Assembly: GCF_020166515.1 (NCBI RefSeq)
Contig: NZ_JAINZT010000007.1
Coordinates: 124,001 to 188,000 of the forward strand
Reading direction: 5' to 3'
DNA length: 64,000 nt
Origin: Robertkochia flava
GTDB taxonomy: Bacteria > Bacteroidota > Bacteroidia > Flavobacteriales > Flavobacteriaceae
Shown: piece by piece, positions 30,400-44,199 of the stretch
How positions within the stretch are numbered: the stretch's first letter is position 1
Layout of the letters: every line of letters starts with the position of its first letter
Program-made: the position numbers and the translations under genes
Notes under the pieces: generated by a model
Told to the model about the DNA's origin: nothing
What the model saw: only the letters and a program-made list of their open reading frames with translations
Database searches by the model: none

Positions 30400-30582
30400 A
30401 GGTAACGGTAAGGCTATGCACAGGCGCGGCTAGGGCCGCTGGCCGACCTTTTGGCCTTTGGCGTTGGCGGAGGCCAGCAACCTGGGCGGGACCTTTTTTG
30501 GTTATTTAGTATTGGAGTTCAATATAAGAAAATAGTCTAATTCCTACAGAAATGTAGCGCTTGGGTATAGCCAGTGTTAGCA
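30400..30582 (-). repeat. attC-like site, class B
   Basis: Minus-strand R'' TGCTAAC (30576-30582), R' GTTACCT (30400-30406). The arm GGTAAGGCTATGCACAGG faces AGCGCTTGGGTATAGCCAG. GC-rich palindromic centre with TTGGCGGAGGCCAGCAACC. Confidence 0.9.
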
Positions 30583-31068: not shown

Positions 31069-31081
31069 TTTTTGGTATGTA

Positions 31082-31264
31082 TGCTAACGGTCAGTGTATG
31101 AACCGTTGCGGTTGAGCGGATCAGGCTGCGCGTGGGCCGTTACCTTTTGGCAAAAGCCTGAGCCGCTGTGACGGGCTGGTTCATTTTAGTTCTGAAGTCT
31201 AATCTAAGAAAATATTCTAAATGAAGTAGGAAGGGAGCAATGGCTTTATACACATATGTTATAC
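31082..31264 (-). repeat. attC-like site, class C
   Basis: Minus-strand R'' GTATAAC (31258-31264), R' GTTAGCA (31082-31088). The arms GTGTATGAACCGTTGC and GCAATGGCTTTATACAC pair well. The interior shares TCTAAGAAAATATTCTAAAT with the sites at 20790 and 34732. It is the attC part of the ORF-less cassette at 31088-31485. Confidence 0.9.
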
Positions 31265-31485
31265 GGCGTTTACTGCTGGACTCCCCGGGAAATTGCAAGT
31301 ACACCCCCGCAAGGCGTGGAGATTGTTAAGGTTGTAAGGGAGAGGAAGCCTTGCGGCTTTTAACCTGGTAAGCTTTGCCCAAGCAATGGCTATTTTATTT
31401 TTTGAGTGACCAAAGAAGTGCTTGCCATTTTCCAAACACACCAAGGTTTTAAGACAGTGGCTTTTTTTTAGTAAATGACGTATAA
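31088..31485 (-). mobile_element. Cassette without a convincing ORF (copy 1)
   Basis: Cassette bounded by the cut points of the two GTTATAC/GTATAAC cores, including its class C attC-like site (31082-31264). The non-site part (31265-31479) is about 90 percent identical by eye to 34916-35128. A 61-codon frame on the minus strand here (31259-31444) is shifted by a one-base insertion in the other copy, arguing against coding. GGGAAATTGCAAG near its left end and CTTGCCATTTTCC near its right end form a long-range inverted repeat. A structured RNA or regulatory cassette is possible. Confidence 0.75.
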
Positions 31486-31615
31486 CGGTCAGGCTATGGC
31501 TCGTGGCGGACGGTTTTAATGCTGGTTCCGACAGCGATGGAAAGCCTGGTTGAGTTCATGAATTTATTAGTTTTTGAGGTAAGAAACTAGCCATGAGCTA
31601 TAGCCAATGTTATGC
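31480..31615 (-). repeat. attC-like site, class A
   Basis: Minus-strand R'' GCATAAC (31609-31615), R' GTTATAC (31480-31486). The arms GGCTATGGCTCGTGGC and GCCATGAGCTATAGCC pair. R'' contains the TAA stop of the gene at 31610. Confidence 0.9.
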
Positions 31616-32035
31616 GTATTTGTTAAATAAAATTGCAAGAATAATGGGAGCAACAAAAAATCCTAGGACCATCGGAAGTATATGTACCGTAACATCTAGC
31701 CAGTTTTGTTTGCGGCCCTCCTCTTTGTCATACCATGAAAATCTATTATAGGTGGGTTCAACTTTATATAATTTTTTATACAACATTCTCAAAAGCGAAT
31801 AGGACGATAAATACACAAAGGGAGCAATTAGAAATTCTGCCCCGTTACCATTAATCGTTTCAGTTTTTACACCACTTATAAGCATTCCCCAAAGACCAAC
31901 TACGAGTGATATAGGAGTTAGAATTAGCAAAATTCTATTTGAGCGCAACAACTTCATAAAACCTAATACTACGAGTATTCCTGTTAGGACAAGACTTAAT
32001 ATTAATATTTGTTTTTCTGTTAGTGTCATTTTCAA
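31610..32035 (-). CDS. Unknown multi-helix membrane protein; stop codon lies in attC
   Basis: 141 residues (an ATG two codons downstream is also possible). About four hydrophobic helices: 8-27, 33-50, 62-78 and a C-terminal pair around 115-138. The loop YNRFSWYDKEEGRKQNWLDV is charged. I recognise no family. The TAA stop is formed by the R'' box (GCA-TAA-C), so the recombination site terminates the reading frame. Confidence 0.65.
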   Translation of the reverse strand: MKMTLTEKQILILSLVLTGILVVLGFMKLLRSNRILLILTPISLVVGLWGMLISGVKTETINGNGAEFLIAPFVYLSSYSLLRMLYKKLYKVEPTYNRFSWYDKEEGRKQNWLDVTVHILPMVLGFFVAPIILAILFNKYA

Positions 32036-32039
32036 TTAC

Positions 32040-32219
32040 GCATAACGGTCGGGCTATGCACAGGCGTGGGTGGCTGGCCTGGCTGACCTTTGGGCCTTTT
32101 GCTTTGGAGGAGGCCAGGGCAGCGAGCACATAGCTTTGGGTTTGTTCTGGTTTTGAAGATAAGTAATATAGTCGAAACTTGTAAGAATGTTAGCGCTTGG
32201 GTATAGCCTCATGTTGTGT
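32040..32219 (-). repeat. attC-like site, class B
   Basis: Minus-strand R'' ACACAAC (32213-32219), R' GTTATGC (32040-32046). The arm GGGCTATGCACAGGCG faces CGCTTGGGTATAGCCTC. The interior has GATAAGTAATATAGTCGAAA, a variant of the class B centre shared with 33422. Confidence 0.9.
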
Positions 32220-32705
32220 TTAGTGTCTTTTGTTTTTTAAGATGAAATTAGTTTTGATTCCTGTGTAAATAAGTAATAGAAACAGGGTTATTTCTATAGC
32301 CCAAAGGATGTAGTAGGTGTTTTTCCATGCTCGGATGTTGATGAAATTTTTAGTTGTTTCTCCTTTTATACTATGTCTAATTTCAAATGGAACTTCAAAA
32401 AAGGTATTAATCCTAGCAATTAGAATCGCAATTACAACGCCCAAGATTAAATTCGCAATTATAAAAATTAGGTTTGTTGTTAAGTTTTTAAAGTTCTGTA
32501 CTAGCTCCCTTATAAAATAAATAGAAAACAGTACGACCCCAGTATGAAGTAGTATTCGAAGCCATTTTTCAATGAAAATGGTTTTGTCAAAGATTTGAAT
32601 TACAGAATAGGTATGATTAGCCAGATCACTTGTTAGAAGCGGGTAATTAATCATTACAGTTAAAATGATAGCGAGGATTAACCAGATTAATTCTTTTCTA
32701 TTCAA
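32220..32705 (-). CDS. Unknown four-helix membrane protein
   Basis: 161 residues, with hydrophobic helices at about 6-22, 50-66, 78-96 and 131-150. Between helices 1 and 2 is a soluble loop (LANHTYSVIQIFDKTIFIEK). No family recognised. The stop begins one base beyond the R'' box. Cores ACACAAC/GTTGTGT match perfectly, with the flanking TTAAACACAAC extending the complement to 10-11 bases. Confidence 0.65.
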   Translation of the reverse strand: MNRKELIWLILAIILTVMINYPLLTSDLANHTYSVIQIFDKTIFIEKWLRILLHTGVVLFSIYFIRELVQNFKNLTTNLIFIIANLILGVVIAILIARINTFFEVPFEIRHSIKGETTKNFINIRAWKNTYYILWAIEITLFLLLIYTGIKTNFILKNKRH

Positions 32706-32727
32706 TTGACGCTTCTTTAGACATTAA

Positions 32728-32863
32728 ACACAACGGTAAGGCTATGGCTCGTGGCGGGCGGTTGCAATGCTGTGTCCGACGGAGATGGAAGGCCTGGTTG
32801 AGTTCATGAATTTATTATTTTTTGGAGTAAGAAACTAGCCATGAGATATAGCCAGTGTTGTAC
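32728..32863 (-). repeat. attC-like site, class A
   Basis: Minus-strand R'' GTACAAC (32857-32863), R' GTTGTGT (32728-32734). Typical class A interior with GGCCTGGTTGAGTTCATGAA and GGAGTAAGAAACTAGCCATG. Confidence 0.9.
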
Positions 32864-32884
32864 GCTGGCTTTTATTAGATTTTT

Positions 32885-33391
32885 TTAATGAAAAATATAA
32901 GTACCGGGAGGCACAGTGAAAATGATGTGTATGTAAAAGCCAAAAATCCAGTATACAAAGAGTAAAAACATGAACAGGAAGCTTTTGAAATTTATAAACA
33001 CTCTTTCCTTCCTATTTAAAGAATAGAATTTGGCTTCGTAATATTTTGAAATACCCTTAATCTCTCTAATGTAGTAATCGAGTCCAATAAGAATGGCAAC
33101 GATAAATAATTTTAAATAAATGGAAGTGTCTAGAAAGGTTAGTCCAGTTAATACATCAATTAGTGCGTAAGTGCTGAAAAAAGTTCCGAAAATTAGCACA
33201 ATAAAAATTCCTGAAGAATATATTTCAAAATAGTAAGAACTTAGATTCGTCCGATTGTAATTTTTCAAATTCTCAATAGAACTTTTGTCTTCAACCTTAT
33301 TAAAATCTGCACTCCAAAAGGCATAATTAGCAAGAAACCAACGGACAGAAATGTGGATGTATATATAAGTAGCGAATAGTTTCTTTAACAT
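32885..33391 (-). CDS. Unknown four-helix membrane protein
   Basis: 168 residues, with helices at about 5-22, 55-75, 85-107 and 140-162. It is rich in Tyr, Phe and Lys. The segment DYYIREIKGISKYYEAKFYSLNRKERVF is a basic cytosolic loop. No family recognised. Cassette cores GTACAAC/GTTGTAC match perfectly. Confidence 0.65.
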   Translation of the reverse strand: MLKKLFATYIYIHISVRWFLANYAFWSADFNKVEDKSSIENLKNYNRTNLSSYYFEIYSSGIFIVLIFGTFFSTYALIDVLTGLTFLDTSIYLKLFIVAILIGLDYYIREIKGISKYYEAKFYSLNRKERVFINFKSFLFMFLLFVYWIFGFYIHIIFTVPPGTYIFH

Positions 33392-33421
33392 TTTTAGAAT
33401 TTGATCTAGATTTTAGCTTGC

Positions 33422-33602
33422 GTACAACGGTCCGGCTATGCACAGGCGTGGTTGGCTGGCCTGGCTGACCTTTGGGCCTTTTGCTTTGGCGGAGGCCAGG
33501 ACAGCGAGTCACATAGCATTTGGTTTGTTCTGGTTTTGAAGATAAGTAATATAGTCGAAACTTGTAGGAATGATAGCGCTTGGGTATAGCCTAATGTTAT
33601 GT
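33422..33602 (-). repeat. attC-like site, class B
   Basis: Minus-strand R'' ACATAAC (33596-33602), R' GTTGTAC (33422-33428). Close relative of the site at 32040, sharing TTTGGGCCTTTTGCTTTGGC and TAATATAGTCGAAACTTGTA. Confidence 0.9.
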
Positions 33603-33613
33603 GCTGTCTGCTT

Positions 33614-33841
33614 TTATTTTTTCTTTTTAAAGCTAATTATGAAGCTGATTGTTATCGTTATTATTCCGATTGCAATTAAGACTATTGCTTCAATTATTTC
33701 ACCAAGGCCTCCAAGACCAGAGTCATTTTTTCTTAAAAATTCAAGCCCATTGTGATAACCATATTTATAGACCCCGATCATTAAAATTACTAGGCCGATC
33801 GTTCTTAAAGAATTTATTAATAGAGATCTAGTTTTTATCAA
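33614..33841 (-). CDS. Small two-helix membrane protein
   Basis: 75 residues: a hydrophobic helix at about 14-30, a short Gly-rich loop KNDSGLGGLGEI, a second helix at 48-70 and a basic tail KKKK. No family recognised; the plan resembles small phage or toxin-like membrane proteins, but that is not evidence of function. Cassette cores ACATAAC/GTTATGT match, extended to nine bases (GCACATAAC). Confidence 0.6.
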   Translation of the reverse strand: MIKTRSLLINSLRTIGLVILMIGVYKYGYHNGLEFLRKNDSGLGGLGEIIEAIVLIAIGIITITISFIISFKKKK

Positions 33842-33881
33842 TTGATTTCTTTTTTAAGAATTAAGAGATGCTCCAGATTGC

Positions 33882-34017
33882 ACATAACGGTCAGGCTATG
33901 GCTCGTGGCGGGCGGTTTTAATGCTGGATCCGACGGAGATGGGAAGCCTGGTTGAGTTCATGAATTTATTATTTTTTGAAGTAAGAAACGAGCCATGAGA
34001 TATAGCCAGTGTTAGCA
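33882..34017 (-). repeat. attC-like site, class A
   Basis: Minus-strand R'' TGCTAAC (34011-34017), R' GTTATGT (33882-33888). The arms GGCTATGGCTCGTGGC and GAGCCATGAGATATAGCC pair. R'' supplies the TAA stop of the SLATT gene. Confidence 0.95.
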
Positions 34018-34716
34018 AAAGTATTTTAAATTCAATTGTTTATATGCGAAAATTAAAATCGGTCCATAAATCATTAGATGATACATAAATGATACTCTAA
34101 AGTATTTTTCAATTTTAATTCTATAAACGTCTAATTTATTTAATTCAAAATAATCCGCTTTATGAGTTTTAAATTCTTTCGTGTCAATATTTGAGTGATT
34201 TTCGTGTTGTCTTAATACTATATCATATTTTTCTGATATTTCTTTAATTGACTCTTCTTCTTGTTGTTTGCTAATTAAAGTTGAAGTTTTAACCATTCTT
34301 AATTGGTTATATAGTTCAGCTATTTCTAATGAGCATTGATGAAATTTTTCCCCTTTAATTGAAAAGTTTTTTGCACTCTCAAATTGACTGTAAACCAAAA
34401 TCAATATTGATAATGCAGTTGTCCAAAAACCTAATTCATTCTCAGGTAATTGTTTAAGAAAGGGGATTTTGTAAATATTTATAAGGTTAATTATTATTAA
34501 ATATGCGGATAAATAACCAACTGTTTTGGAGGATAATTCGTTTAGTTTTTTATTCCTTTCGCTAGCAGAAAACCGAGCTCCTTTAGTAATCCATAATTTA
34601 TAGTTTAATTCAACTCCAAAATCTTTTTTTAGATATGGAGGTTGTTTTCTTTTTAAACGTTTAATTCTTTTTGCACGCTTTACTTTTTTCAAGTAAAGCT
34701 TAATTTTTTCTAGCAT
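34012..34716 (-). CDS. SLATT-domain (2TM nucleotide-signalling-associated) effector
   Basis: 234 residues. After a very basic N-terminus comes LNYKLWITKGARFSASERNKKL, then two hydrophobic helices (about 65-85 and 95-112), ESAKNFSIKGEKFHQCSLEIAELYNQL, and a C-terminal hydrophobic region. This is the layout of the SLATT family (SMODS/SLOG-associating two-membrane-helix effectors), predicted pore-forming executors of anti-phage nucleotide signalling. No cyclase or SLOG gene is adjacent; as a lone cassette it may act alone or with a partner elsewhere. The last codon and stop (TGC-TAA) lie in the attC R'' box. Very AT-rich. Confidence 0.8.
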   Translation of the reverse strand: MLEKIKLYLKKVKRAKRIKRLKRKQPPYLKKDFGVELNYKLWITKGARFSASERNKKLNELSSKTVGYLSAYLIIINLINIYKIPFLKQLPENELGFWTTALSILILVYSQFESAKNFSIKGEKFHQCSLEIAELYNQLRMVKTSTLISKQQEEESIKEISEKYDIVLRQHENHSNIDTKEFKTHKADYFELNKLDVYRIKIEKYFRVSFMYHLMIYGPILIFAYKQLNLKYFC

Positions 34717-34731
34717 TCTTGTTAATATTTT

Positions 34732-34915
34732 TGCTAACGGTCAGTGTATGAACCGTTGCGGCTGGGCGGATCAAGCTTTTGCGCGTTGGCCTTTGGCGCT
34801 GGCAAAGCTTGAGCCGCTGTGACGGGCTGGTTCATTTTGGTTCTGCAGACTAATCTAAGAAAATATTCTAAATGATGTAGGACGTGAGCAATGGCTTTAT
34901 ACACATATGTTATAC
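34732..34915 (-). repeat. attC-like site, class C
   Basis: Minus-strand R'' GTATAAC (34909-34915), R' GTTAGCA (34732-34738). Highly similar to 31082-31264. The arms GTGTATGAACCGTTGCGG and GCAATGGCTTTATACAC pair. Confidence 0.95.
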
Positions 34916-35134
34916 GGCGTTTACTGCTGGACTCCCCGGAAAATGGCAAGTACACCCCCGCAAGGCGAGGAGATTTTTAAGCTTGTGATGGAGTGGAAGC
35001 CTTACGGTTTTAACCTGGTAAGCTTTGCCCAAGCAATGGCCATTTTTATTTTTTGAGTGACCAAAGAAGCGCTTGCCATTTTCCAAACAAACCCGACTTT
35101 TCTAGGAGAACTTTTTTCTGTAAATGACGTATAA
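34738..35134 (-). mobile_element. Cassette without a convincing ORF (copy 2)
   Basis: Second copy of the cassette at 31088-31485, including the same class C site and the same GTTATAC/GTATAAC cores, but at a different position in the array. A perfect 13-bp inverted repeat brackets its body: 34938-34950 pairs with 35072-35084. Between them the sequence could fold further. The frame that is open in copy 1 is shifted here. Duplication or repeated capture of a non-coding cassette fits the observation. Confidence 0.75.
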
Positions 35135-35314
35135 CGGTCGGGCTATGCACAGGCGCGGTTGGGGCCGCTGGCCGACCTTTTGGCCTTTGGCGTTGGCGGA
35201 GGCCAGCAACCTGGACGGGGTGCATTTTTTTCTTTTTTTGTTCTGGAGATTAAGATAAAGAAAATAGTCTAATTCTTGTAGGATCCCGCGCTTGGGTATA
35301 GCCTCATGTTGTGC
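35129..35314 (-). repeat. attC-like site, class B
   Basis: Minus-strand R'' GCACAAC (35308-35314), R' GTTATAC (35129-35135). The interior has GGTTGGGGCCGCTGGCCGAC and AGATAAAGAAAATAGTCTAA. Confidence 0.9.
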
Positions 35315-35346
35315 ATAGTGTTTTGCTTTTTTCTGTTCTTATTTCA

Positions 35347-35784
35347 TTAAGTTTTATTTGATCCTTTTTTTATTATAAATGGCATTCCAATCCCAATTAG
35401 AATTATTAATGTCGAGTATAATAGAAATGGTTCACTTATAAAATATTGGGCTACTAGCGGGCTAGGTTTTCCAATATAAGTCAATATGTATAATCCTAGA
35501 AGCAATGAAAAGGTTACGAAAAGGAGTACGATTAAAATATCTTTTATCAAATCGGTTATTTTAAACTCTTTACGCTTTGAGTTTAAAAGCATTCCAAATA
35601 CGGGAATAGATGAAATAATGAAATAGTCGAGGTTTGCAAAGGCGAGGCCAAAAAAGTATCCCGTTATCTGATGCACTGAATTATTAAGACCAAATGGATT
35701 AATTCTTCCAGAGAAGAACAGGATGAAAATTAGTGCAGAAATTGCCCAAATCACATATTTAATCTGATTAGGTATTTTATTCAC
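35347..35784 (-). CDS. Unknown membrane protein
   Basis: 145 residues with about four hydrophobic helices (9-26, 40-68, 82-104, 118-138). The sequence LILIGIGMPFIIKKGSNKT ends with a basic tail. No family recognised. Cassette cores GCACAAC/GTTGTGC match perfectly, with the complement extended to GTTGTGCATA. Confidence 0.65.
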   Translation of the reverse strand: MNKIPNQIKYVIWAISALIFILFFSGRINPFGLNNSVHQITGYFFGLAFANLDYFIISSIPVFGMLLNSKRKEFKITDLIKDILIVLLFVTFSLLLGLYILTYIGKPSPLVAQYFISEPFLLYSTLIILIGIGMPFIIKKGSNKT

Positions 35785-35816
35785 TTGTTTGGGATTACGG
35801 GTTTTTTAAACATTAT

Positions 35817-35955
35817 GCACAACGGTAGGGCTATGGCTCGTGGCGGGCGGGTTGGTTAATGCGTCCGATGGAAACGAATAGCCTGGTTGAGTTCATGAAT
35901 ATTTATTCTTTTTTAGAAGTACTACACTAGCCATGAGATATAGCCGATGTTGTGC
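35817..35955 (-). repeat. attC-like site, class A2
   Basis: Minus-strand R'' GCACAAC (35949-35955), R' GTTGTGC (35817-35823). The sub-class A2 interior has GCGTCCGATGGAAACGAATA and TTTTTTAGAAGTACTACACT, ending in TATAGCCGATGTT instead of AGCCAGTGTT. Confidence 0.95.
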
Positions 35956-36053
35956 TTTCGTTATTTTTAAAATTCATTATTACATACTTTACATATTATT
36001 TCGTTTTTACCTTAAACTAGTAATGTATCCTATTACATTTATGGCAGGAATAC

Positions 36054-36509
36054 TTATTTTCCATTATTATTGAACATATACCTGTAAATCTTTAAATCCC
36101 CATTTTGATCGGGTTTTAATATCAGCAATCCTTTCACTTCAAAGTTTCCACTTTCAGCCGTCTTTGGATCTTTCCAGCTTCCTATATTTCTAGTTCGGGC
36201 GATACTATATTCACCTGCCGTGATTACTTCTTCAATGATGAACTGTTCAGCAAAGTCAAGGGATTCAAACCATTTGAAACTTTCTATGATTTCTTTACGG
36301 CCTTTAACAATTGGTTTCCCCTCCGGTAGGATCATCGCATCGTCGTGGAAGCAGTCTGCCATCTTTGAGAATGATTTACTGCCCACAGCACTCCCGTATT
36401 GATCAAGCACTTCCCTAACATCCTTTCCTAAGCTGCTTTCTTGCGCATGGGTTAAAGTTATTGATAAGAGGGAAAAAAAAGTTAAAAGTGTAAGTAGTTT
36501 TGTTTTCAT
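36054..36509 (-). CDS. Exported NTF2/SnoaL-like (DUF4440-type) protein
   Basis: 151 residues with a clear signal peptide (ending THAQ). The pattern VREVLDQYGSAVGSKSFSKMADCFHDDAMILPEGKPIVKG, then KEIIESFKWF and a final strand LLILKPDQNGDLKIYRY is a SnoaL/DUF4440 fold. Fourth NTF2-like gene of the window and the only one in the compact array. There is a 117 bp leader between the site and the start, longer than in most cassettes, and a 98 bp 3' tail. The cassette may carry its own promoter. Confidence 0.8.
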   Translation of the reverse strand: MKTKLLTLLTFFSLLSITLTHAQESSLGKDVREVLDQYGSAVGSKSFSKMADCFHDDAMILPEGKPIVKGRKEIIESFKWFESLDFAEQFIIEEVITAGEYSIARTRNIGSWKDPKTAESGNFEVKGLLILKPDQNGDLKIYRYMFNNNGK

Positions 36510-36626
36510 GTTGAAAAATTTTGTGGTTTATTAAAACTATTCGAATTCTTTCTCAATGTAAGTTAAAAGCTCTCGGCTTATTGTTATTAAATGGCTCCAA
36601 AACATGATTTGGTTGATTGTAATGAA

Positions 36627-36790
36627 GCACAACGGTAAGGCTATGGCTCCCTGCCTACCTGCCGCTAGGCAGGCAGGGTGGCGGGCGGTTTTAGTGCTGT
36701 TGCCGACAGCGATGGAAAGCCTGGTTGCGTTCATGAATTTATTATTTTTTGGAGTAAGAAACTAGCCATGAGATATAGCCAGTGTTAGCA
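36627..36790 (-). repeat. attC-like site, class A, with inserted palindrome
   Basis: Minus-strand R'' TGCTAAC (36784-36790), R' GTTGTGC (36627-36633). Normal class A except for a 30-nt palindromic insertion in the left arm (36649-36678). Confidence 0.95.
36649..36678. repeat. REP-like palindrome inserted in an attC-like site
   Basis: A 30-nt near-perfect palindrome (arms CCCTGCCTACC and GGCAGGCAGGG) interrupts GGCTATGGCTCGTGGC of a class A site. Related CCTGCC/GGCAGG blocks sit in the decayed sites at 19591, 27124, 28239 and 29251. Confidence 0.7.
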
Positions 36791-36798
36791 CCTGTTTC

Positions 36799-37239
36799 TT
36801 ATAGTTTTCTTGTTGATTTTACTTTTTCATTTTTAATGTCAAATACTATTTTCTTAGGGTTATTTCTTGGGCTGTTAATGGCTTTTAATTTTTCATTTTT
36901 AAACCCAGTGAATTGTAGTAGGTTAAAAGTTCTCTTGTATTGAATTACTTCTTTTTTCTTGACGTCTAAAATGGTAATGATCTGAACTGTACCTTTTAAA
37001 AATTTCTTAGTCCATTTTGGAATGGCGGCCATGGTGCCATCTTCATTCCATATTGCAGGACCACCAAAGTTGTCACCTAAGAAAGTTTTAATTTCATTTT
37101 CATCGATCCATTGACAGCTTCCTATTAAAGGTGAGCCCATTGCAATTTCTTTCAATCCAAAGTATTTAATTCTGTTATCCGTTGAATTCAATTCTTTAAT
37201 ACCGTTATGAAAATCCCATGGGTTTGGATAAGTTGTCAT
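36799..37239 (-). CDS. Unknown soluble protein
   Basis: 146 residues with no signal peptide or membrane helix. It starts MTTYPNPWDFHNGIKELNST; the core ETFKEIAMG-like stretch IKYFGLKEIAMGSPLIGSC and IWNEDGTMAAIPKWTKKFL suggest a beta-rich fold; the tail is Lys-rich. I do not recognise a family. Cassette cores TGCTAAC/GTTAGCA match, extended to nine bases (GTTAGCACC). Confidence 0.65.
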   Translation of the reverse strand: MTTYPNPWDFHNGIKELNSTDNRIKYFGLKEIAMGSPLIGSCQWIDENEIKTFLGDNFGGPAIWNEDGTMAAIPKWTKKFLKGTVQIITILDVKKKEVIQYKRTFNLLQFTGFKNEKLKAINSPRNNPKKIVFDIKNEKVKSTRKL

Positions 37240-37264
37240 TGGGTTGCGATTTTTCAGAAATTGG

Positions 37265-37445
37265 TGCTAACGGTAAGGCTATGCACAGGCGTGGGTGGCT
37301 GGCCTGGCCCCGTGGCGTTGGCCGTTACCTCTGGCAAGGGCCAGGGCAGCAGGTACAATAGCTTTGGTTTTTAATGCTGATCAAGATAAAGAAAATAGTC
37401 TAATTCTTACAGAAATGTAGCGCTTGGGTATAGCCAGTGTTAGCA
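37265..37445 (-). repeat. attC-like site, class B
   Basis: Minus-strand R'' TGCTAAC (37439-37445), R' GTTAGCA (37265-37271). The interior has ATCAAGATAAAGAAAATAGT and CTAATTCTTACAGAAATGTA; the right arm is CGCTTGGGTATAGCCAG. Confidence 0.95.
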
Positions 37446-37454
37446 AACGGTTTT

Positions 37455-37904
37455 TTATTTTATTTGAGTCCATTGTCCTATCAGAATAAGAAATTCAGAT
37501 AGCTCATAAAAAGCTAGAACTGTCAAAACAGAAAGTCCGTTTTCCGTTTTCCATTTTTTGATTAAAGTCCAGATGTAAATTCCTATTGGAAGGAGCATTA
37601 AGAATCTCAATTCTCCAATGAAAGGATATTGAAATAAGGGCCAAAAAAAAAGTAAAAATGAAAAAAGTCCAATTGCAAAATTTGGCCATTTTAGTTTTGT
37701 AGCTTGGTGGACTGAAAAGATTAAAGTTAGAATTCCAAAGCTGAAAAAAGATAAGTTGGTTAACAATTGATTCTTAAAAAGAGTCAGTACAAAACTAACT
37801 GTAAGACCTATCAAGATAACTTTGAGTAATTTCGGTTTCGTTTTTGGGTAAAGTAGTAGCCCAGCAAAAATTCCAATTCCGATTATAATTATGTGTTCTG
37901 TCAT
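37455..37904 (-). CDS. Unknown five-helix membrane protein
   Basis: 149 residues, with about five hydrophobic helices (4-18, 27-42, 50-64, 77-98 and 120-143). The N-terminus is Ile-rich and TKPKLLK is the first cytosolic loop. No family recognised. Cassette cores TGCTAAC/GTTAGCA match, extended to GTTAGCAAAC. Confidence 0.65.
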   Translation of the reverse strand: MTEHIIIIGIGIFAGLLLYPKTKPKLLKVILIGLTVSFVLTLFKNQLLTNLSFFSFGILTLIFSVHQATKLKWPNFAIGLFSFLLFFWPLFQYPFIGELRFLMLLPIGIYIWTLIKKWKTENGLSVLTVLAFYELSEFLILIGQWTQIK

Positions 37905-37913
37905 TCAACTGTT

Positions 37914-38051
37914 TGCTAACGGTAAGGCTATGGCTCGTGGCGGACTGGTTGTATGCTGCGTCCGATGGAAACGAATAGCCTGGTTGGGTTCATGAATATT
38001 TTTCTTTTTTAGAAGTACTACACTAGCCATGAGATATAGCCGATGTTAGCC
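37914..38051 (-). repeat. attC-like site, class A2
   Basis: Minus-strand R'' GGCTAAC (38045-38051), R' GTTAGCA (37914-37920). The interior has GCGTCCGATGGAAACGAATA and TTTTTTAGAAGTACTACACT. Confidence 0.95.
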
Positions 38052-38083
38052 ACTGTTGTTTTTTTATTTTCTTTTTTTAGGCT

Positions 38084-38302
38084 TTAGAAACTTATTACTT
38101 CAATCCATTTTAGGAGCAGAATTATTAATGCTGTTATGCCCGTGCTCACGAAAATTGATCCCTGCCAGTAATATGTTTTCGTTACCCAATTATTGAAAAG
38201 CTTTTTGCCATATTCATTTTGGAAATGAACGTGCGTTAGTTTCCAAAAAAGGAAATTGGTAATCAAAAAGATTACAATTGCTATGATGATAGTTGTCTTC
38301 AT
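38084..38302 (-). CDS. Small two-helix membrane protein
   Basis: 72 residues: a helix at 3-22 (IIIAIVIFLITNFLFW), a middle loop FQNEYGKKLFNNWVTKTYYW and a second helix at 50-68. No family recognised. Cassette cores GGCTAAC/GTTAGCC match perfectly (GTTAGCCAC extended). Confidence 0.65.
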   Translation of the reverse strand: MKTTIIIAIVIFLITNFLFWKLTHVHFQNEYGKKLFNNWVTKTYYWQGSIFVSTGITALIILLLKWIEVISF

Positions 38303-38338
38303 TATTTCCTTTTTTTAACGGTTGTGTTTTACAATTGT

Positions 38339-38474
38339 GGCTAACGGTCAGGCTATGGCTCGTGGCGGGCGGTTTTAATGCTGTGTCCGACGGAGACGGA
38401 AAGCCTGGTTGAGTTCATGAATTTATTATTTTTTGGAGTAAGAAACTAGCCATGAGATATAGCCAGTGTTACCT
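38339..38474 (-). repeat. attC-like site, class A
   Basis: Minus-strand R'' AGGTAAC (38468-38474), R' GTTAGCC (38339-38345). Nearly identical to the site at 33882 apart from the core boxes. Confidence 0.95.
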
Positions 38475-38481
38475 GCTGGCT

Positions 38482-39747
38482 TTACTTTTTCAACATTAAA
38501 TTTAACCCTTCCTTTTCAAATAAAATTCGGCCAACTTTTATATCTGACCAACCTTTTTTTAGTTGATAAGTAAAAGTTGGCTTATTTTCAATCAATTCAC
38601 AATTGATGTCATAGTTTTCTATTTTCCCGTTTGAAACTTGTTTCAGGTCTTGAATATGAGTAGAAATGAAGAAGTATGAATTGTCGAATTTGGTCAATCC
38701 GTTTATTGTTGTTTTACAAATTTCAAAACCATCCTCTATATTAGTCCCACTAAAAAGCTCATCAAAAACAGCAAAGCATCTTTTTTCTCTTGATGCTTGT
38801 TCAACTACCCTTTTCAAGTTCAGAATTTCAGTCATAAAATGACTGTAACCATTTAAAATATCATCTCTTCTGTTTATCTCAATGGAAAAGCAATCACAAA
38901 AGGGGATCTCTCCTTTTGATGCAGGTATACCAATTCCTAAATGACCAAAATAGATACATAAAGCAACAGCCTTAAGAAAGGTTGATTTTCCAGACATATT
39001 CGGGCCGTTCAATACAATTACGTTACTACTCGTTTCAAGGTTATTTTTGACGGGATTCTCCAATAATGGATGATAGAATTTATGGAGCTTGATCTGTCCT
39101 TGTATAAAGGTTGGATATGAGAAATTGTGTTTTTTTATACCGACATTAATTGACAAGTAGGCTTCGAACAGAAAGAAATCTTCCCAAAAAGGTATTAGCA
39201 ATTCCTTTTCCCTTATCGTATTGATTATTTGAGTTAGTTCAATTATGTGTCTGTCCTTTAATCCATTATCTCGGACAAGAGCCTCATATTTATGAAGTTT
39301 GAAATGAGATAAGAACTGCAATATTGCTTTAATACTTGAAGCGTATTCATTTGGGAAAGCCTCTAATTTTAACCTGGTAAAATACTTTGATTCCAGGCGA
39401 TGGAAAAAAAGAATCAATTGATTGAACTTACTTACATATCTTGTTTTTGCTTGTTTTGATCCAAACAATATGTAACTAAGTTTTTTTTGCGAAAGATCAT
39501 CTATTTCTTCCTCATTGAGGAAATAATAAACTTCATTTAAATATAAAACCGTGTAAGAGTAGTCCTTTAAGATTTCACTATTTAGGGCATACCCTTGTAA
39601 TATATTTTGACGTTCAGTTATTTCTTCTGTCGACTTTAATGGTGTTTGAAGTATCTCAAGAATTTTATTTTTCGCAAATACGTTCAACGAAAAATCGAAT
39701 AAGGGCAAAATTTCCTGGTTAATATTTAAGTCATTAAGATTATTCAT
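38482..39747 (-). CDS. MutS-like ATPase lacking mismatch-recognition domains
   Basis: 421 residues. An N-terminal helical lever region (about 1-235) resembles MutS domain III. Then comes the MutS ATPase with Walker A GPNMSGKST (248-256), EINRRDDILNGYSHF, Walker B CFAVFDELFSGTN (about 324-336) and FFISTHIQDL. It lacks MutS domains I and II, as in short MutS-related proteins of Bacteroidota whose substrates are unsettled. By far the largest cassette gene of the compact array. A role in binding branched or recombining DNA, possibly including cassette hairpins, is speculation. Confidence 0.8.
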   Translation of the reverse strand: MNNLNDLNINQEILPLFDFSLNVFAKNKILEILQTPLKSTEEITERQNILQGYALNSEILKDYSYTVLYLNEVYYFLNEEEIDDLSQKKLSYILFGSKQAKTRYVSKFNQLILFFHRLESKYFTRLKLEAFPNEYASSIKAILQFLSHFKLHKYEALVRDNGLKDRHIIELTQIINTIREKELLIPFWEDFFLFEAYLSINVGIKKHNFSYPTFIQGQIKLHKFYHPLLENPVKNNLETSSNVIVLNGPNMSGKSTFLKAVALCIYFGHLGIGIPASKGEIPFCDCFSIEINRRDDILNGYSHFMTEILNLKRVVEQASREKRCFAVFDELFSGTNIEDGFEICKTTINGLTKFDNSYFFISTHIQDLKQVSNGKIENYDINCELIENKPTFTYQLKKGWSDIKVGRILFEKEGLNLMLKK

Positions 39748-39778
39748 TTCTTATTCGGGATGGTGTTTTCAAGCTTGC

Positions 39779-39914
39779 AGGTAACGGTAAGGCTATGACT
39801 CGTGGCGGTCGGTTTTAATGCTGGATCCGACAGCGATTGTGAGCCTGGTTGCGTTCATGAATTTATTATTTTTTGGAGTAGGAACCTAGCCATGAGTTAT
39901 AGGCAGTGTTGGCA
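39779..39914 (-). repeat. attC-like site, class A
   Basis: Minus-strand R'' TGCCAAC (39908-39914), R' GTTACCT (39779-39785). The interior has GCCTGGTTGCGTTCATGAAT and GGAGTAGGAACCTAGCCATG. Confidence 0.95.
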
Positions 39915-39924
39915 ATATGTTTTA

Positions 39925-40467
39925 CTACATTAATTCTGCAAGTGTTTCATTTTTAAATGCTTCAACATATTTTTTCATTTGACGATTTAATTTGAGATTA
40001 TTTGATTTCTCAGAACAATATTCTATTAAGATCCCTGCAGCACCTAATTGAATTTCTTTGACATCTTTTTGTTCTCTAAAAACTTCACCAGGTATAGGTT
40101 TACAAGTTAAGAGCCGGTTGTGATTAAATTTTTGATTTAAAGCATAATTTACCAATGCGACACGGTAATAATATTTTTGATATTCCTTGTTGCTTAAATC
40201 TTCATAAAATGGACCAAATAAAGGAAACCCAAAATCGGTGGTATCATTCATCCATTTCCCTATTAATTTATTTGCATAAAAGTATTTCTCGGATTTATAA
40301 TCAACAGGATTTTCGAATACGTAGTTAGAAGCCTCAAAAACGACTTTATCATATTTGGAATAGTCCACACTATCAGACGAAGTTATATTTTGAAAGGCTT
40401 CTTTAAATTGAGAAAAGGTAGAAGTTGAAAAGATTAAAAATCCAATAAGGAATAAGGTTTTTTTCAT
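39925..40467 (-). CDS. Unknown exported protein
   Basis: 180 residues with a signal peptide (ending TSTFSQ). The mature part is helical with conserved-looking stretches YDKVVFEASNYVFENPVD, GKWMNDTTDFGFPLFGPFY and KEIQLGAAGILIEYCSEK, resembling an uncharacterised flavobacterial secreted family. No catalytic motif is obvious. Cassette cores TGCCAAC/GTTGGCA match, extended to GTTGGCAATA. Confidence 0.65.
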   Translation of the reverse strand: MKKTLFLIGFLIFSTSTFSQFKEAFQNITSSDSVDYSKYDKVVFEASNYVFENPVDYKSEKYFYANKLIGKWMNDTTDFGFPLFGPFYEDLSNKEYQKYYYRVALVNYALNQKFNHNRLLTCKPIPGEVFREQKDVKEIQLGAAGILIEYCSEKSNNLKLNRQMKKYVEAFKNETLAELM

Positions 40468-40500
40468 TTTATAAGGATGAGTAGATTAAAATAAAATTAT

Positions 40501-40639
40501 TGCCAACGGTCAGGCTATGGCTCGTGGCGGGCGGTTTGTGAAAAGCGTCCGATGGAAACGAGTAGCCTGGTTGAGTTCATGAATATTTTTTCTTTTTTAG
40601 AAGTACTGCACTAGCCATGAGCTATAGCCGATGTTGGCA
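40501..40639 (-). repeat. attC-like site, class A2
   Basis: Minus-strand R'' TGCCAAC (40633-40639), R' GTTGGCA (40501-40507). Sub-class A2 interior. Confidence 0.95.
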
Positions 40640-40666
40640 GCTGGTTTTATTTCTTGACTTCTATAG

Positions 40667-41551
40667 CTAGTCAATTCCAAGTCGTTTTTCCATTTCCTGC
40701 CATTGTTTTCCAAATTCGATACTTTCTAATGCAGCTTTTCTTTTTTCTTCTGGCAAACATTGAATACATGTTGGATATTGAATTCCTTTATACTCTTTTT
40801 TGCATTTTGGACATAATTCCAAGTTGTGCATGTCAAAATTAGTTGCACATTTTTTACAAGCCGTTATGGTATCTTCAAAGGAGAGATATTTAATATTGTC
40901 GTCTAGATAAAGTAAAAACGCCTCTTTTTCAATGGTTTCAGTGTCTTTGTTTTTTACTAATTCTCTTTGAAACCAATACTTGATGTTAGATAGGTTATGC
41001 TTATTTCTATATTGATCCTTCGAAACGAAGCATTTATCCCGAACTTCATAAGCATCCTCATTTTCGAAAAAGATAGAAATAAGTTCGTCTGCCTCCCTAT
41101 AATTTGCTTCTTCAAATTCATGCTTACAATCAACGCAACGATATTTTGGAATTTTTCTTTTCCTTTCGTTGGGGTTTTTACTCATACATTTTGGGCACAA
41201 AGGAATCGCCTTATAAACATATTTATTTAATACATGATCCCTAAAAATTGGTTTTTTAAATTCAGAATTGTCATTTATGTATTCCCTGGTGTAAGCACTT
41301 GTAACCTCGCGTAAAAAATCTCCATATTTCCTTGGATGAGAAAGATGCTGAATAGTTAATGTTTTTTTACTCGAACATATTTCACATTTGTCTTTAATGA
41401 TTTTTGCCCTTCTTTCTTTCCAGTCCTTTGTATGCCAAGACCGTTTGTCCTCATTGAAGTTTTTCCAATATTGTTCTTTGGCAATTTCTAATTCAATCTC
41501 ATCATTTACGAGTTTGTCTCTTAATTCTATGATCTCATTATATGTTAACAT
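40667..41551 (-). CDS. Zinc-ribbon protein with HNH-like segment
   Basis: 294 residues from ATG at 41551; the open frame reaches 41605, but only through a TTG in the attC-like site. Cys pairs: CEICSSKKTLTIQHLSHP (about 55-73), where the following Q-H and preceding W--RR resemble an HNH nuclease entry; CPKCMSKN with CVDCKHEFEE; CKKCATNF with CPKCKKEYKG; and CIQC near the end. Several zinc ribbons or an HNH plus ribbons are likely. A DNA- or RNA-binding or nuclease function is inference. Cassette cores TGCCAAC/GTTGGCA match. Confidence 0.7.
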   Translation of the reverse strand: MLTYNEIIELRDKLVNDEIELEIAKEQYWKNFNEDKRSWHTKDWKERRAKIIKDKCEICSSKKTLTIQHLSHPRKYGDFLREVTSAYTREYINDNSEFKKPIFRDHVLNKYVYKAIPLCPKCMSKNPNERKRKIPKYRCVDCKHEFEEANYREADELISIFFENEDAYEVRDKCFVSKDQYRNKHNLSNIKYWFQRELVKNKDTETIEKEAFLLYLDDNIKYLSFEDTITACKKCATNFDMHNLELCPKCKKEYKGIQYPTCIQCLPEEKRKAALESIEFGKQWQEMEKRLGID

Positions 41552-41599
41552 CTCGATTTTTGATTTATCTATTTGCAAAAGGGTGTTTGTCAAACTTGC

Positions 41600-41784
41600 T
41601 GCCAACGGCAGGGCTATGCACTGGCGCGGGTGGGGGCAGCTGGCCGAGCTTTTGGCCTTTGGCGTTGGCGGAGGCCAGCAACCGAGACGTGGTGCATTTT
41701 TTTCTTTTTGTTCTGGATTTGAAGATAGAAAAAATACTCTAATTCTTACAAGAATCTAGCGCTTGTGTATAGCCGAAGTTGTAC
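41600..41784 (-). repeat. attC-like site, class B
   Basis: Minus-strand R'' GTACAAC (41778-41784), R' GTTGGCA (41600-41606). The interior has GGCCTTTGGCGTTGGCGGAG and GATAGAAAAAATACTCTAAT. Confidence 0.9.
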
Positions 41785-41789
41785 TGCGT

Positions 41790-42362
41790 TTATTTATTTT
41801 TTTCGTATTCATTAATTATCTTATGTATTAATTGATTTAGATGCACAATCGGTTGTTTTATGTTTCGATTGTGATATTGATTTTCTTCATCGAAATAAAA
41901 ATCATAAAACTCTAAATTTTGACTCCCTTCTAAGGAGATTAGTTCGATTTTGTAGAAAGAATGATGAACTGCGTAATATTCAGTCATGAATTTTGAAGAA
42001 AAATAGTTGTCTTTGTTTGCATTTAATTCGTTCCAAAATTCGCTAATATCGATAGATTCAGGTTTGTGAGATTTACAACAATCAATTTTTAAAATTTCAG
42101 AATTGTTTATTGTTTTCCAGATGATATAAACAGATTTATAGCCTGAACTACATTCACATTCATCGGGGTCAATCGTTTCACAACCAATACAACCATGTGT
42201 ATATATTAAGACTGAATCTACTTCAAGGCTGCTTAAAATTTCTAATGCTTTTTTGTTTGCAGTAGAATCAATTTTGTCAAAGGTGAATTCTTGAGCTTTT
42301 ATTCCAGGAATAAAATATCCAATATTAAAAAGTAGGATATATAGAAAGTAGCGGTTTTTCAT
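41790..42362 (-). CDS. Unknown exported Cys-rich protein
   Basis: 190 residues from ATG at 42362, which begins about 10 bases after the attC core; the longer frame to 42413 is translated attC. The signal peptide ends GIKAQ. The mature domain has a Cys cluster THGCIGCETIDPDECECSSGYKSVYIIW and IDCCKSHK, so metal binding or disulphides are likely. No family recognised. The core match is the longest in the array: the flanks are complementary over about 15 of 16 bases around GTTGTAC. Confidence 0.65.
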   Translation of the reverse strand: MKNRYFLYILLFNIGYFIPGIKAQEFTFDKIDSTANKKALEILSSLEVDSVLIYTHGCIGCETIDPDECECSSGYKSVYIIWKTINNSEILKIDCCKSHKPESIDISEFWNELNANKDNYFSSKFMTEYYAVHHSFYKIELISLEGSQNLEFYDFYFDEENQYHNRNIKQPIVHLNQLIHKIINEYEKNK

Positions 42363-42369
42363 AAATGCA

Positions 42370-42548
42370 GTACAACGGTAAGTGTATGACCCGTTGTGGC
42401 TGGGCGTGCTCAAGCTGAGCGTTGGCCATTACCTCTGGCAGAGCTTGAGCCGCCAGGACGGATTGTTCACTTTTGTTCAGGAGTCTAATCTATGGAAATA
42501 TTCGAAATTTAGTAGGATTTGAGCAATGGGTTATACACATTGTTGGCA
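42370..42548 (-). repeat. attC-like site, class C
   Basis: Minus-strand R'' TGCCAAC (42542-42548), R' GTTGTAC (42370-42376). The arms GTGTATGACCCGTTGTGG and GCAATGGGTTATACAC pair. First site of the array after the attI-like core. Confidence 0.9.
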
Positions 42549-42552
42549 ATAG

Positions 42553-42954
42553 TTATTTATTTAGATATTTTTTTACAAATTTCAGATCCGATTGATTATC
42601 AATTTGGGTATTCGAAACGCATACACTTGTCCACAATTTTCCGTTTTCATCTAATCTTCCAAAGACTAAATATTTTTTGTTTTTTTCAAAAAAATAGTCA
42701 CAAATGTTTTTCTCCTCCTTTTCCTCTATCAGTTTTTTATTTGGTAGTATATTAATTCCGCGATAAAATTTTATGGGTTCAAATTTCCCATGTCCAATAT
42801 ATTTCCCGTAAAAGATTACAGTCGAATTTTCGAAACTGTCTTCCAATTTTAGTTCCGATTGACTTTTGTCCTTAGTAATCGGATACGTTTTGCATTCACA
42901 AGCAAAGGATTGATTGAAAAAGGTCAAAAAAATGATGATTACTATCGATTTCAT
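42553..42954 (-). CDS. TIMP/NTR-like small exported protein (attI-proximal cassette)
   Basis: 133 residues. The signal peptide ends in SFACEC, so the mature protein starts at or next to Cys-Glu-Cys, as in TIMP/netrin-like (NTR) domains. Following strands include NSTVIFYGKYIGHGKFEPIKFYRG and KNKKYLVFGRLDENGKLWTSVCV. Bacterial TIMP-like domains of unknown target are known; protease inhibition is only a possibility. It is the first cassette next to the recombinase, so by integron logic the most recently inserted and best expressed. Cores TGCCAAC/GTTGGCA match over 14 of 15 bases. Confidence 0.65.
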   Translation of the reverse strand: MKSIVIIIFLTFFNQSFACECKTYPITKDKSQSELKLEDSFENSTVIFYGKYIGHGKFEPIKFYRGINILPNKKLIEEKEEKNICDYFFEKNKKYLVFGRLDENGKLWTSVCVSNTQIDNQSDLKFVKKYLNK

Positions 42955-42972: not shown

Positions 42973-43062
42973 TGCCAACTTGTTTATATCGATTGCTTTA
43001 TGGTTTATATGCCGTCATATTGGTGGGTAAACCGCAGGCAATTCGGTTGTATCGAATATAGG
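42973..43062 (-). other. attI-like primary attachment site
   Basis: On the minus strand the recombinase stop is followed by about 83 bp, then the core GTTGGCA (42973-42979) that starts the first cassette. Unlike every other site, no L-type arm (GGCTAT or GTGTAT) follows the core on the 5' side; instead there is CGATATAAACAA. This simple, non-palindromic form is what an attI site looks like in integrons. An AAACCG...CGGTT inverted repeat lies at 43029-43048. A cassette promoter may be here but no clear box is visible. Confidence 0.65.
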
Positions 43063-44199
43063 CTATAGATGGAGATCGTCAAAAGGATTTCGGATCTTTT
43101 GTAAACTCCGGGTGGTGCCATGGGTGTATAACATGGTGGTCTTCGGGTCGTTGTGGCCCAGTAGTTCCTGGATGTACCTGATGTCCGTACCGTTCTCCAG
43201 TAAATGAGTGGCATAACTGTGCCTTAAGGTATGGAGGGTGACTTTCTTGGTGATTCCCAATTCTTCCAGTAAACTTTTGAAAATACTCCTGGCACTGGAT
43301 TGCGTATACTGTCCGCCTTTTTGACCTTCAAATAAATAATATTTTGGATGGTAAGTTCTGAGATATTCGTTCAGCTTCTCCAGGGTCTTGTCGCTTATAG
43401 GGATAAACCGGTCCTTAGCGCCCTTGGGATGCCTTATATGCATGAATTGACGATGAGTATCGATATCGGAAATTCTTAAATTCAAAGCCTCCCCGATACG
43501 TAAACCACAGGAGTAAATAAGACTGAAGAGGAAGCGATGCTTTATATTCTTCACAGCCGACAGGATACGGAACACTTCTTCCTTTGATAAAACCTCCGGT
43601 AGCTTCCTTTCTCTACGCGGACGTTCCAGGTTATAGGTGTCCAGTTTGCGATCGTGAAAACGCATGTAAAATAATTTTAAAGCACTGATGATCTGGTTCT
43701 GAAATACCCTGCTGTATCCCTTGGCAATAATATAAGCTTCGTTAAACCTTTCTACATCTGCCCGGTCGATGTCAATGGGATCCTTATCGCAGAAAAAATC
43801 AAAAAATACCCGTAATAGCCCTGTGTAGGTGTTAATGGTATTTTTACTGTAGCGCATCTGTTCCATCCAATGGCGATAATCCTCAAGTTCTATGGCCACC
43901 TTCCTTGCTATGGTCTCATCGGGGATCCTGTCCTTAGTATCATCAGCATCAGATAGTTCGGATTCAGATTCGAATCTCAATTTACTGTAATCTACATACC
44001 AGCCTTCCGAACGGAAATGCTGGAAAATAGCGTTTAAATGAAAACGGGAGTAGGGCATAAGATAGGCCCGTTGTTCATGTGACCAATGCAGCCCGTTGTA
44101 TGCGCGGATGAGTGTCCTGAAATCCGGATCGTCTATTACTTCAATTCGTATGTGATGCTGCCCTTCATGCATAAACGGCAGTAAGGTGACTGTTTTCAT
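43063..44199 (-). CDS. Tyrosine recombinase of the cassette array (XerC/IntI-like, Bacteroidota type)
   Basis: 378 residues from ATG at 44199 (a TTG six codons upstream is possible). Residues 1-100 are a Bacteroidota-type extension; 100-190 the core-binding SAM-like domain (YSKNTINTYTGLLRVF); 200-378 the catalytic domain with Arg234 (SCGLRIGEAL), Lys near 259-262, His323 and Arg326 (HTLRHSYATHLL), His349 (LLGHNDP) and nucleophile Tyr358. The end IRNPFDDL resembles the IntI end. Only about 55 residues separate FIPIS from HTLRH, so the IntI-specific insertion is missing. It is co-directional with the cassettes and ends 83 bp before the first core. It probably inserts and excises cassettes. Confidence 0.85.
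   Translation of the reverse strand: MKTVTLLPFMHEGQHHIRIEVIDDPDFRTLIRAYNGLHWSHEQRAYLMPYSRFHLNAIFQHFRSEGWYVDYSKLRFESESELSDADDTKDRIPDETIARKVAIELEDYRHWMEQMRYSKNTINTYTGLLRVFFDFFCDKDPIDIDRADVERFNEAYIIAKGYSRVFQNQIISALKLFYMRFHDRKLDTYNLERPRRERKLPEVLSKEEVFRILSAVKNIKHRFLFSLIYSCGLRIGEALNLRISDIDTHRQFMHIRHPKGAKDRFIPISDKTLEKLNEYLRTYHPKYYLFEGQKGGQYTQSSARSIFKSLLEELGITKKVTLHTLRHSYATHLLENGTDIRYIQELLGHNDPKTTMLYTHGTTRSLQKIRNPFDDLHL

Follow-up and report, generated by a model that had tools for sequence, protein, structure and literature searches.

Introduction

In an integron, the bases that follow the GTT of a junction belong to the next cassette, and in the circular cassette they pair with the bases that precede the AAC of its own site. 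Sedentary chromosomal integrons are among the closest described counterparts of the locus analyzed here: in both, an integrase gene lies beside an attI or attI-like site, the array is carried on a single strand, every cassette has its own site with a GTT junction, and the bottom strand of the site forms, or is predicted to form, a hairpin that contains R and L boxes as well as an unpaired spacer. The dif sites of Xer-dif and pdif modules are short duplex sites. In gut Bacteroidales, arrays of immunity genes headed by a tyrosine recombinase were reportedly described by Ross et al. in 2019 under the name rAID-1.

Surveys define the integron integrase, IntI, by its additional domain (relevant part of PMC8352920), which archaeal IntIs retain according to the pertinent passages of Ghaly 2022 (PMC9668308). 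In the portion of Escudero 2020 (PMC7790495) that bears on the question, integron integrases are described as having gained single-strand recombination via the I2 helix, and intermediates are said to be lacking. The strand choice of attC sites is directed by extrahelical bases on the R''-L'' arm, as stated in the section concerned of Bouvier 2009 (PMC2727003). For Bacteroidetes proper, the passages of the IntegronFinder 2 paper (PMC9024848) that deal with this group place a complete integron in Salinibacter. No report of the system described below was found in the integron literature (open-licence PMC papers, preprints excluded).

Here, we analyze a window of 64,000 nucleotides from Robertkochia flava, in which a first-pass annotation had noticed an array recombinase without the insertion that defines IntI. 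Judged from sequence, the locus likely represents an integron-like gene-cassette system that is driven by a Xer-like tyrosine recombinase and has no recognisable IntI. The system is present in most sampled genomes of Flavobacteriaceae; the observation of the first-pass annotation was right, and it concerns something larger than was stated.

Results

Integrase gene and catalytic core

The cassette integrase is encoded on the minus strand at 43063..44199, where an open frame extends from 43063 to 44217 and the first ATG lies at 44199, giving a tyrosine recombinase of 378 aa. A plus-strand reading of 43063-44199 was rejected, the plus strand being non-coding there. Upstream of the gene, a tandem repeat with an 8-nt step (AGGGAAGT-like) occupies 44402-44469. 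The catalytic residues named by the first-pass annotation (R234, H323, R326, H349 and Y358) are all present and invariant in a 28-row alignment, and so are the lysines K259 and K262. In profile searches, the integrase obtained 232.8 bits with NCBIfam NF040815 (cut-off 220), a model labelled as archaeal XerA-like, 'site-specific tyrosine recombinase/integron integrase'. Its score with the integron integrase model TIGR02249 was 205.6 bits, below the cut-off of 265, and that with the XerD model was 188.8 bits. The top PDB sequence matches were XerA (5hxy, 4a8e), followed by IntI4 (2a3v). An AlphaFold2 model of the whole integrase (mean pLDDT 86.3, pTM 0.60) was aligned by VIA-align to XerA 5hxy (Z 23.0, rmsd 14.0), IntI4 2a3v (Z 21.3, rmsd 4.7, 273 residues) and XerH 5jjv (Z 20.7, rmsd 4.2). 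In its catalytic core, its score above the NF040815 cut-off and its closest solved structure, the enzyme resembles archaeal XerA; unlike XerA, the window system has an N-terminal domain, an array and an attI-like site.

The first-pass annotation had proposed that no IntI-type insert precedes HxLRH, and this was borne out. The spacing from K-D-R to HxLRH is 58 residues in the window integrase and 58-59 residues in every one of the 36 homologues measured (alignment A2, window protein included; a few of them have no nearby site). It amounts to 53-58 residues in 13 viral Xer-like relatives and 66 residues in one Xer-like protein of the host genome, and to 100 residues in all 17 measurable IntIs of the same phylum. 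The spacing pattern failed on seven rows (three IntIs, three recombinases of the host genome and one viral protein), and three PDB rows were omitted. The match to TIGR02249 consists of two pieces, model positions 182-244 being skipped, and the alignment to IntI4 (2a3v) is interrupted at the place of the insert, where it passes from IntI residue 188 to 253. Structure prediction had been suggested as a check: in the AlphaFold2 model, only two helices (270-283 and 300-314) lie between the strand at 264-267 and the helix of H323, and no I2-like helix is seen. The IntI-specific additional domain (I2 helix) that characterizes an IntI-type integron is absent from the integrase.

N-terminal extension

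The same annotation had described an N-terminal extension of about 100 residues. The extension is real, and its stated length resolves into a domain of about 78 residues (approximately residues 1-78; 43966..44199, minus strand) plus a linker, with residues 79-90 forming a low-confidence linker in the model of the whole integrase. Residues 1-80 modelled alone adopt a b-b-a-b-b-a-b fold (pLDDT 91.7) with a weak likeness to XPB and MutS domains. Pfam gave no match at E<=1 for residues 1-90. The best match among solved structures was XPB 2fz4 (Foldseek probability 0.98, TM 0.56, E 0.098), with a VIA Z of 6.7 over 62 residues at rmsd 3.7; MutS domains followed at Z 4-5, and the unrelated CASTOR1 and eIF1 reached Z 5.4-5.9. 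Because E is about 0.1 and Z is at most 6.7 (under 8), the likeness to XPB and MutS serves as a lead only. SMARCAL1 HARP, which we had presumed to be a likely relative of this domain, is absent from the 50 structural matches listed for it.

A possible, if doubtful, reading is that the hairpin of a site, or its G.T pairs (see below), is bound by the N-terminal domain in the manner of XPB damage-recognition and MutS mismatch domains, and that this domain replaces the I2 helix. Besides the presence of XPB and MutS among its solved matches, this would agree with the distribution of the extension, whose profile scores in 27 of the 29 array-linked loci and which is covered by none of 80 viral Xer-like matches, all starting at query residue >=97. 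However, one of the 27 loci (L081) has a score of only 12.8, and the extension of L072 and L078 is cut off from the core by a stop or frame change. Of the two unscored loci, L064 has a gene broken by a stop, where the profile scan covered 263 nt and tblastn covers the extension (query 2-382). In the other, array-linked L076 (genome G039), the extension is absent; translation of the 1.87 kb upstream in all six frames revealed no remnant of it. Since L076 is array-linked without it, the extension was not adopted as an obligatory part, and the earlier suggestion that it provides the recognition solution is only partly supported, by its occurrence in 27 of the 29 loci. The weak structural E-values and the Z values under 8, with CASTOR1 and eIF1 nearly as close, also count against recognition by this domain, which might instead serve dimerisation, attI binding or a partner.

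The attI-like site and cassette closure

An attI-like site (42977..43062, minus strand) adjoins the integrase stop. Its crossover lies between G (42979) and TT (42978-42977), and its left half reads GATATAAACAA. As in an IntI-type integron, an attI-like site with the same junction stands beside the integrase. Judged by sequence and predicted folding, the cassettes are also co-directional as in such an integron, with attC-type sites between them whose bottom strand folds. Unlike in sedentary chromosomal integrons, the integrase gene is co-directional with the array and the attI-like junction follows its stop codon. The repeats of the array are mostly 128-131 and 171-178 nt long, lie on the same strand as the integrase, start with AAC and end with GTT.

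Starting from the attI-like GTT, 86 nt past the last codon, closure was observed in 18 of 18 consecutive cassettes, with 5-7 contiguous pairs. All 18 attC-like sites are on the minus strand. Nine cassettes close over 7 bp, namely those of sites 1 (42374..42544, 171 nt, closing with the attI junction), 2 (41604..41780, 177 nt), 4 (39783..39910, 128 nt), 7 (37269..37441, 173 nt), 10 (35133..35310, 178 nt), 12 (33886..34013, 128 nt), 15 (32044..32215, 172 nt), 16 (31484..31611, 128 nt) and 18 (30404..30578, 175 nt). Closure spans 6 bp in seven others, which carry sites 3 (40505..40635, 131 nt), 5 (38343..38470, 128 nt), 6 (37918..38047, 130 nt), 8 (36631..36786, 156 nt, low detector score of 9.5), 9 (35821..35951, 131 nt), 13 (33426..33598, 173 nt) and 14 (32732..32859, 128 nt), and 5 bp in the remaining two, with sites 11 (34736..34911, 176 nt) and 17 (31086..31260, 175 nt). 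Beyond these sites, a distal degenerate part of the array (21499..29442, minus strand, boundaries uncertain) contains site-related copies, most of them below the detector threshold (e.g., 29255-29442). An Rfam scan of the window gave no match.

The same relation holds across 52 loci, which include three gene fragments (L015, L016 and L017) and one broken gene (L064). Here, 158 neighbouring pairs closed over 5.68 contiguous bp on average, as compared with 1.27 bp in 1958 mismatched pairs. Closure was exactly 7 bp in 101 of the neighbouring pairs and exceeded 7 bp in none; 28 pairs closed over at most 4 bp, in part because intervening sites went undetected. A junction defined by closure was located between the integrase stop and the first detected site in 34 of 49 loci, some of these junctions not being that of the first cassette. 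The junction consensus, aTATAAacAA/GTT, was built from 20 near loci after L009, L010, L070 and L081 had been dropped along with loci whose junction is >460 nt away; L086, L092 and L094 clearly deviate from it. In some loci, a similar element was seen by eye about 50 nt upstream of the junction.

In addition, two satellite arrays were noticed elsewhere in the host genome (G000): one at C6:678686-684097 (L224) with nine sites and closure of at least 5 bp in 8 of 8 neighbours, and one at C8:302600-304215 (L225) with four sites and such closure in 3 of 3 neighbours. Neither has a close integrase homologue; past one end of either array, there is another tyrosine recombinase (418- and 424-aa frames).

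Predicted fold of the sites and proposed choice of strand

The detector used to collect sites evaluates structure, giving A.C and G.T equal scores; at the threshold used, its background was 0.39 per 20 kb of shuffled sequence, the shuffles keeping base make-up alone. Sites of 118-135 or 165-195 nt with a detector score >=12 were retained, so that those outside these limits were dropped; lower thresholds applied to junctions, other-class loci and the window array. The resulting 256 sites count those of one contig twice, as L010 and L073 are the same contig. When 60 of 100 picked sites were aligned as bottom strands (alignment A1), they showed a single stem of 16 bp, in which 14 of the 16 pairs have two-sided compensatory change. 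A G.T pair occurs at one stem position in 57 of the 60 sites and at another in 47.

On the gene strand of the 256 sites, the non-Watson-Crick stem pairs comprise 297 A.C, 20 G.T and 12 others, an imbalance which identifies the bottom strand as the pairing strand. In 132 of 141 sites, it is also the bottom strand that folds more stably. Inner arms of equal offset were found in 185 of 253 sites (eight commonest classes), an extra base on the other arm in 52, and another inequality in 16. Most sites of the window type are therefore equal-armed and, unlike the sites of sedentary chromosomal integrons, lack the extrahelical bases on the R''-L'' arm that mark an attC, conserved G.T pairs taking their place. 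The R-box pairing of a cassette, which here reaches up to 10 bp, is a further difference from those integrons.

Two observations speak against an explanation of strand choice by such wobble pairs. One site class (the 52 sites above) carries an unpaired extra base. In canonical attC sites, removal of the extrahelical bases lowered attC x attI recombination just ~6-fold, attC x attC recombination failing, according to the part of Bouvier 2009 (PMC2727003) concerned with these mutants; canonical sites thus also work without extrahelical bases in one reaction, which counts against the idea of a strand mark. Rather than forming a structural mark, the conserved G and T might serve as base contacts. 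L222, an IntI array from the same phylum with 11 repeats, shows by eye an extra base on the first arm.

Phylogenetic position of the integrase

The placement of the integrase had been another suggested check. In a 77-row tree computed from columns filled in at least 60% of rows, so that the IntI insert was removed, 21 IntI rows form one group (94/98). The window protein (P0001) pairs with L007 of Robertkochia sediminum (100/100) and is nested among array enzymes (22 rows, 100/95). Its wider group includes viral Xer-like rows (95/74) and is apart from XerA and from the Xer-like rows of its own genome. The array enzymes do not constitute one group, as L086 and L092 join two viral rows (95/92); the arrayless L080 groups with two other viral rows. 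The free tree thus sets the window integrase outside IntI; besides its missing insert, this placement would distinguish it from the integrases of sedentary chromosomal integrons. When P0001 and L007 were forced into IntI, the tree became 27 log units worse, with a borderline AU p of 0.061, so that their exclusion from IntI is favoured, not proven.

That borderline value, together with a TIGR02249 score above that of the XerD model (205.6 vs 188.8 bits), would suit a divergent IntI that lost its insert, i.e., a genuine integron lineage whose integrase has been reduced. We consider such a descent unlikely. The 21 IntI rows hold together in the free tree while P0001 falls among the array enzymes, and archaeal XerA exceeds IntI in structural Z. 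Moreover, since all 36 measured homologues lack the insert and have the Xer-like length, any loss of it would have been old and clean.

Distribution of integrase, sites and IntI

A homologue of the integrase (E<=1e-45) is present in 250 of 397 sampled genomes of Flavobacteriaceae; it is not near-universal, as a Xer dimer resolvase would be. In 13 of the best 31 homologue rows, the gene is on the minus strand and no more than 3 kb from the start of its contig, which places the contig break on the array side, as repeats would lead one to expect. Of the 37 loci with at least 5 kb downstream (the contig of L010 and L073 counting twice), 32 have a site and 30 have two or more; the five siteless loci comprise two gene fragments as well as L077, L080 and L091, which are not fragments. 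Around the integrase, 252 sites were detected in 641 kb downstream and 2 in 81 kb upstream. By comparison, a viral control of 80 loci with Xer-like genes yielded 22 sites in 1.03 Mb, equal to the background rate.

Using a site covariance model at E<=0.01 (E-values are rough and per-genome counts are lower bounds), we obtained matches in 350 of the 397 family genomes: 248 of the 250 with the integrase and 102 of the 147 without a homologue at E<=1e-45. Outside the family, in 266 genomes of the phylum sample, sites occur in 52 of 72 genomes with the integrase vs 57 of 194 without it (odds ratio 6.2, p 5e-10), and in 33 of 84 genomes with IntI vs 76 of 182 without it (odds ratio 0.90, p 0.79); Fisher tests overstate independence here because the genomes are related, and both the phylum and the family samples are draws from larger groups. 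Sites were also present in 46 of 135 of these genomes with neither integrase and in 11 of 59 with IntI alone. Sites without an integrase may be orphan arrays or reflect missed integrases, model errors or another enzyme. Six loci in other classes or orders were examined that encode this integrase; of these, L216 lacks any class-length site and L223 shows a single weak one.

These genomes bear on a reading that we regard as quite unlikely, in which the array is recombined by another enzyme, either a housekeeping Xer-like pair or an IntI from outside, and the adjacent gene is a bystander. The host genome does contain two further Xer-sized homologues (L002 and L003/L006), the core of the integrase is itself Xer-like, and the 102 site-bearing family genomes without a close homologue would be in line with this reading. 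IntI, likewise, exceeds its cut-off in 84 of 296 phylum genomes, of which one is in the class of the window and none is among the 30 family members. However, in many lineages the sites lie directly downstream of the integrase and an attI-like junction is found close to its stop codon; outside the family, the sites are uncorrelated with IntI. In the expected direction, the detector reported a single class-length site across six IntI loci (that of L215), and none of the 11 repeats of L222. An IntI elsewhere in the genome that drives the array had been named by the first-pass annotation as a refutation of its reading; no IntI over the TIGR02249 cut-off was detected in the host genome or in any of 299 sampled family genomes, in a scan whose 14 control genomes were also negative; an IntI elsewhere in the genome or family was rejected on this basis. 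The adjacent integrase is thus, on these patterns of occurrence, the enzyme that likely recombines the sites.

Several further loci were recorded. At G430 C40:3592-4530 lies the sole IntI that, in the phylum sample, exceeds the cut-off in a genome of the window's class. A Chryseobacterium plasmid (SNU WT5; L209, 12804-20700) encodes a relative of 347 aa; the repeats behind it, with sites of 140 nt, are possibly a plasmid-borne array of this kind. A Flagellimonas plasmid (L210, 10007-10825) encodes a core-only XerA-like recombinase beside erm(F), which is annotated as 'integron integrase' and behind which no array was detected.

Cassette content and mobility

The cassette genes of the window lie between the sites on the minus strand (30595..42954), and 2 of 14 scanned pass the Pfam cut-off (MutS_V and SLATT_5). 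The gene at 38482-39747 encodes a MutS domain V ATPase (PF00488, 7.9e-31), for which the Pfam scan reported no mismatch-binding domain. That at 34012-34716 encodes an effector-type membrane protein of the SLATT_5 family (PF18160, 7e-46) and is possibly a defence gene. In the degenerate distal array, three adjacent DUF6090 genes occupy 25500-28217.

Comparison of 182 cassettes (L009 and L010 excluded) yielded 20 pairs with similarity across half of their length. At 86-93% identity, three G145 cassettes reappear, reordered, in G113, which belongs to another genus, and one cassette of G339, from a third genus, recurs in G113 at 91%. These four cross-genus cassettes have differing neighbours, and every alignment end lies within 20 nt of a GTT. 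Near-identical cassette copies are also found inside some arrays (four in L093). The shared, reordered cassettes and the copies within arrays indirectly suggest that cassettes move as units. That the repeats, which are indeed palindromic, intergenic and repeated, are merely intergenic hairpins such as terminators or REP-like elements is extremely improbable and was rejected, since cassette closure and the GTT boundaries of shared cassettes, as well as the attI-like junction and the link to the integrase, would be left unexplained.

Discussion

Two other kinds of element invite comparison with the window system. Its recombinase has the Xer-like fold of Xer-dif and pdif modules; unlike in those, sites of the window type are 120-190 nt long and close per cassette. 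The rAID-1 elements are the other: in Parabacteroides and Bacteroides, arrays are headed by a related integrase and their cassettes have short sites, some of them closing on the start of their own cassette. The Parabacteroides integrase shares 37% identity with the window integrase over 372 columns, the alignment starting inside the N-terminal domain. Among neighbours in the Bacteroidales arrays, closure of at least 6 bp was found in 9 of 21, as against 5 of 153 mismatched pairs, using a loose pattern that includes false sites. The array sites of gut Bacteroidales differ from the window sites in being ~45 nt long with TAAC/ATTA ends, and their cargo includes named immunity genes, whereas the Pfam scan found no named immunity family among 20 window genes. 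Two Bacteroidales plasmids (L227, 11053-17100, and L230, 13053-22200) carry a related integrase, several immunity-annotated genes and ~45-nt TAAC...ATTA hairpins.

Returning to an integron-like system driven by the adjacent Xer-like integrase, its working may be pictured as follows. The bottom strand of a site would fold into a hairpin, and the integrase would bind the R and L boxes of this hairpin, cut at G/TT and join the site to attI or to another site, whereby cassettes would leave as circles and be inserted. Strand choice, for which the I2 helix of IntI reads the extrahelical bases of attC, would here come from the two conserved G.T pairs, which are paired on the bottom strand and appear as A.C mismatches on the top strand, together with an asymmetric spacer. 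A plain catalytic core would read the G.T pairs and the spacer, aided in most members by the N-terminal domain. As the sites associate with this enzyme class, recognition should differ from that of IntI; here, the first-pass annotation appears sound in so far as the sites track an enzyme without the insert, the part that it assigned to the extension being partly supported. The differences between these sites and attC, i.e., G.T pairs in place of extrahelical bases, may form part of the recognition solution.

More broadly, we tentatively propose that Bacteroidota could harbour a second integron lineage, distinct from IntI and represented in most of the Flavobacteriaceae genomes sampled, composed of a Xer-like integrase with a small N-terminal domain that reads DNA structure and of hairpins marked by two conserved G.T pairs, without I2 helix and extrahelical bases, in which the immunity arrays of gut Bacteroidales would be a short-site branch. 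If this were true, single-strand cassette recombination would have arisen or persisted without the I2 helix and extrahelical bases.

The results describe a widespread cassette system whose enzyme lacks the I2 helix and whose sites have a seemingly different strand mark. They suggest that IntI surveys based on the additional domain miss a large cassette pool in Bacteroidota. Since integron-like arrays are here combined with an enzyme that has no I2-type part, there may be another, second mode of folded-DNA recognition, and, if the system works, the requirements for recombining a folded single strand would become testable with a simple enzyme.
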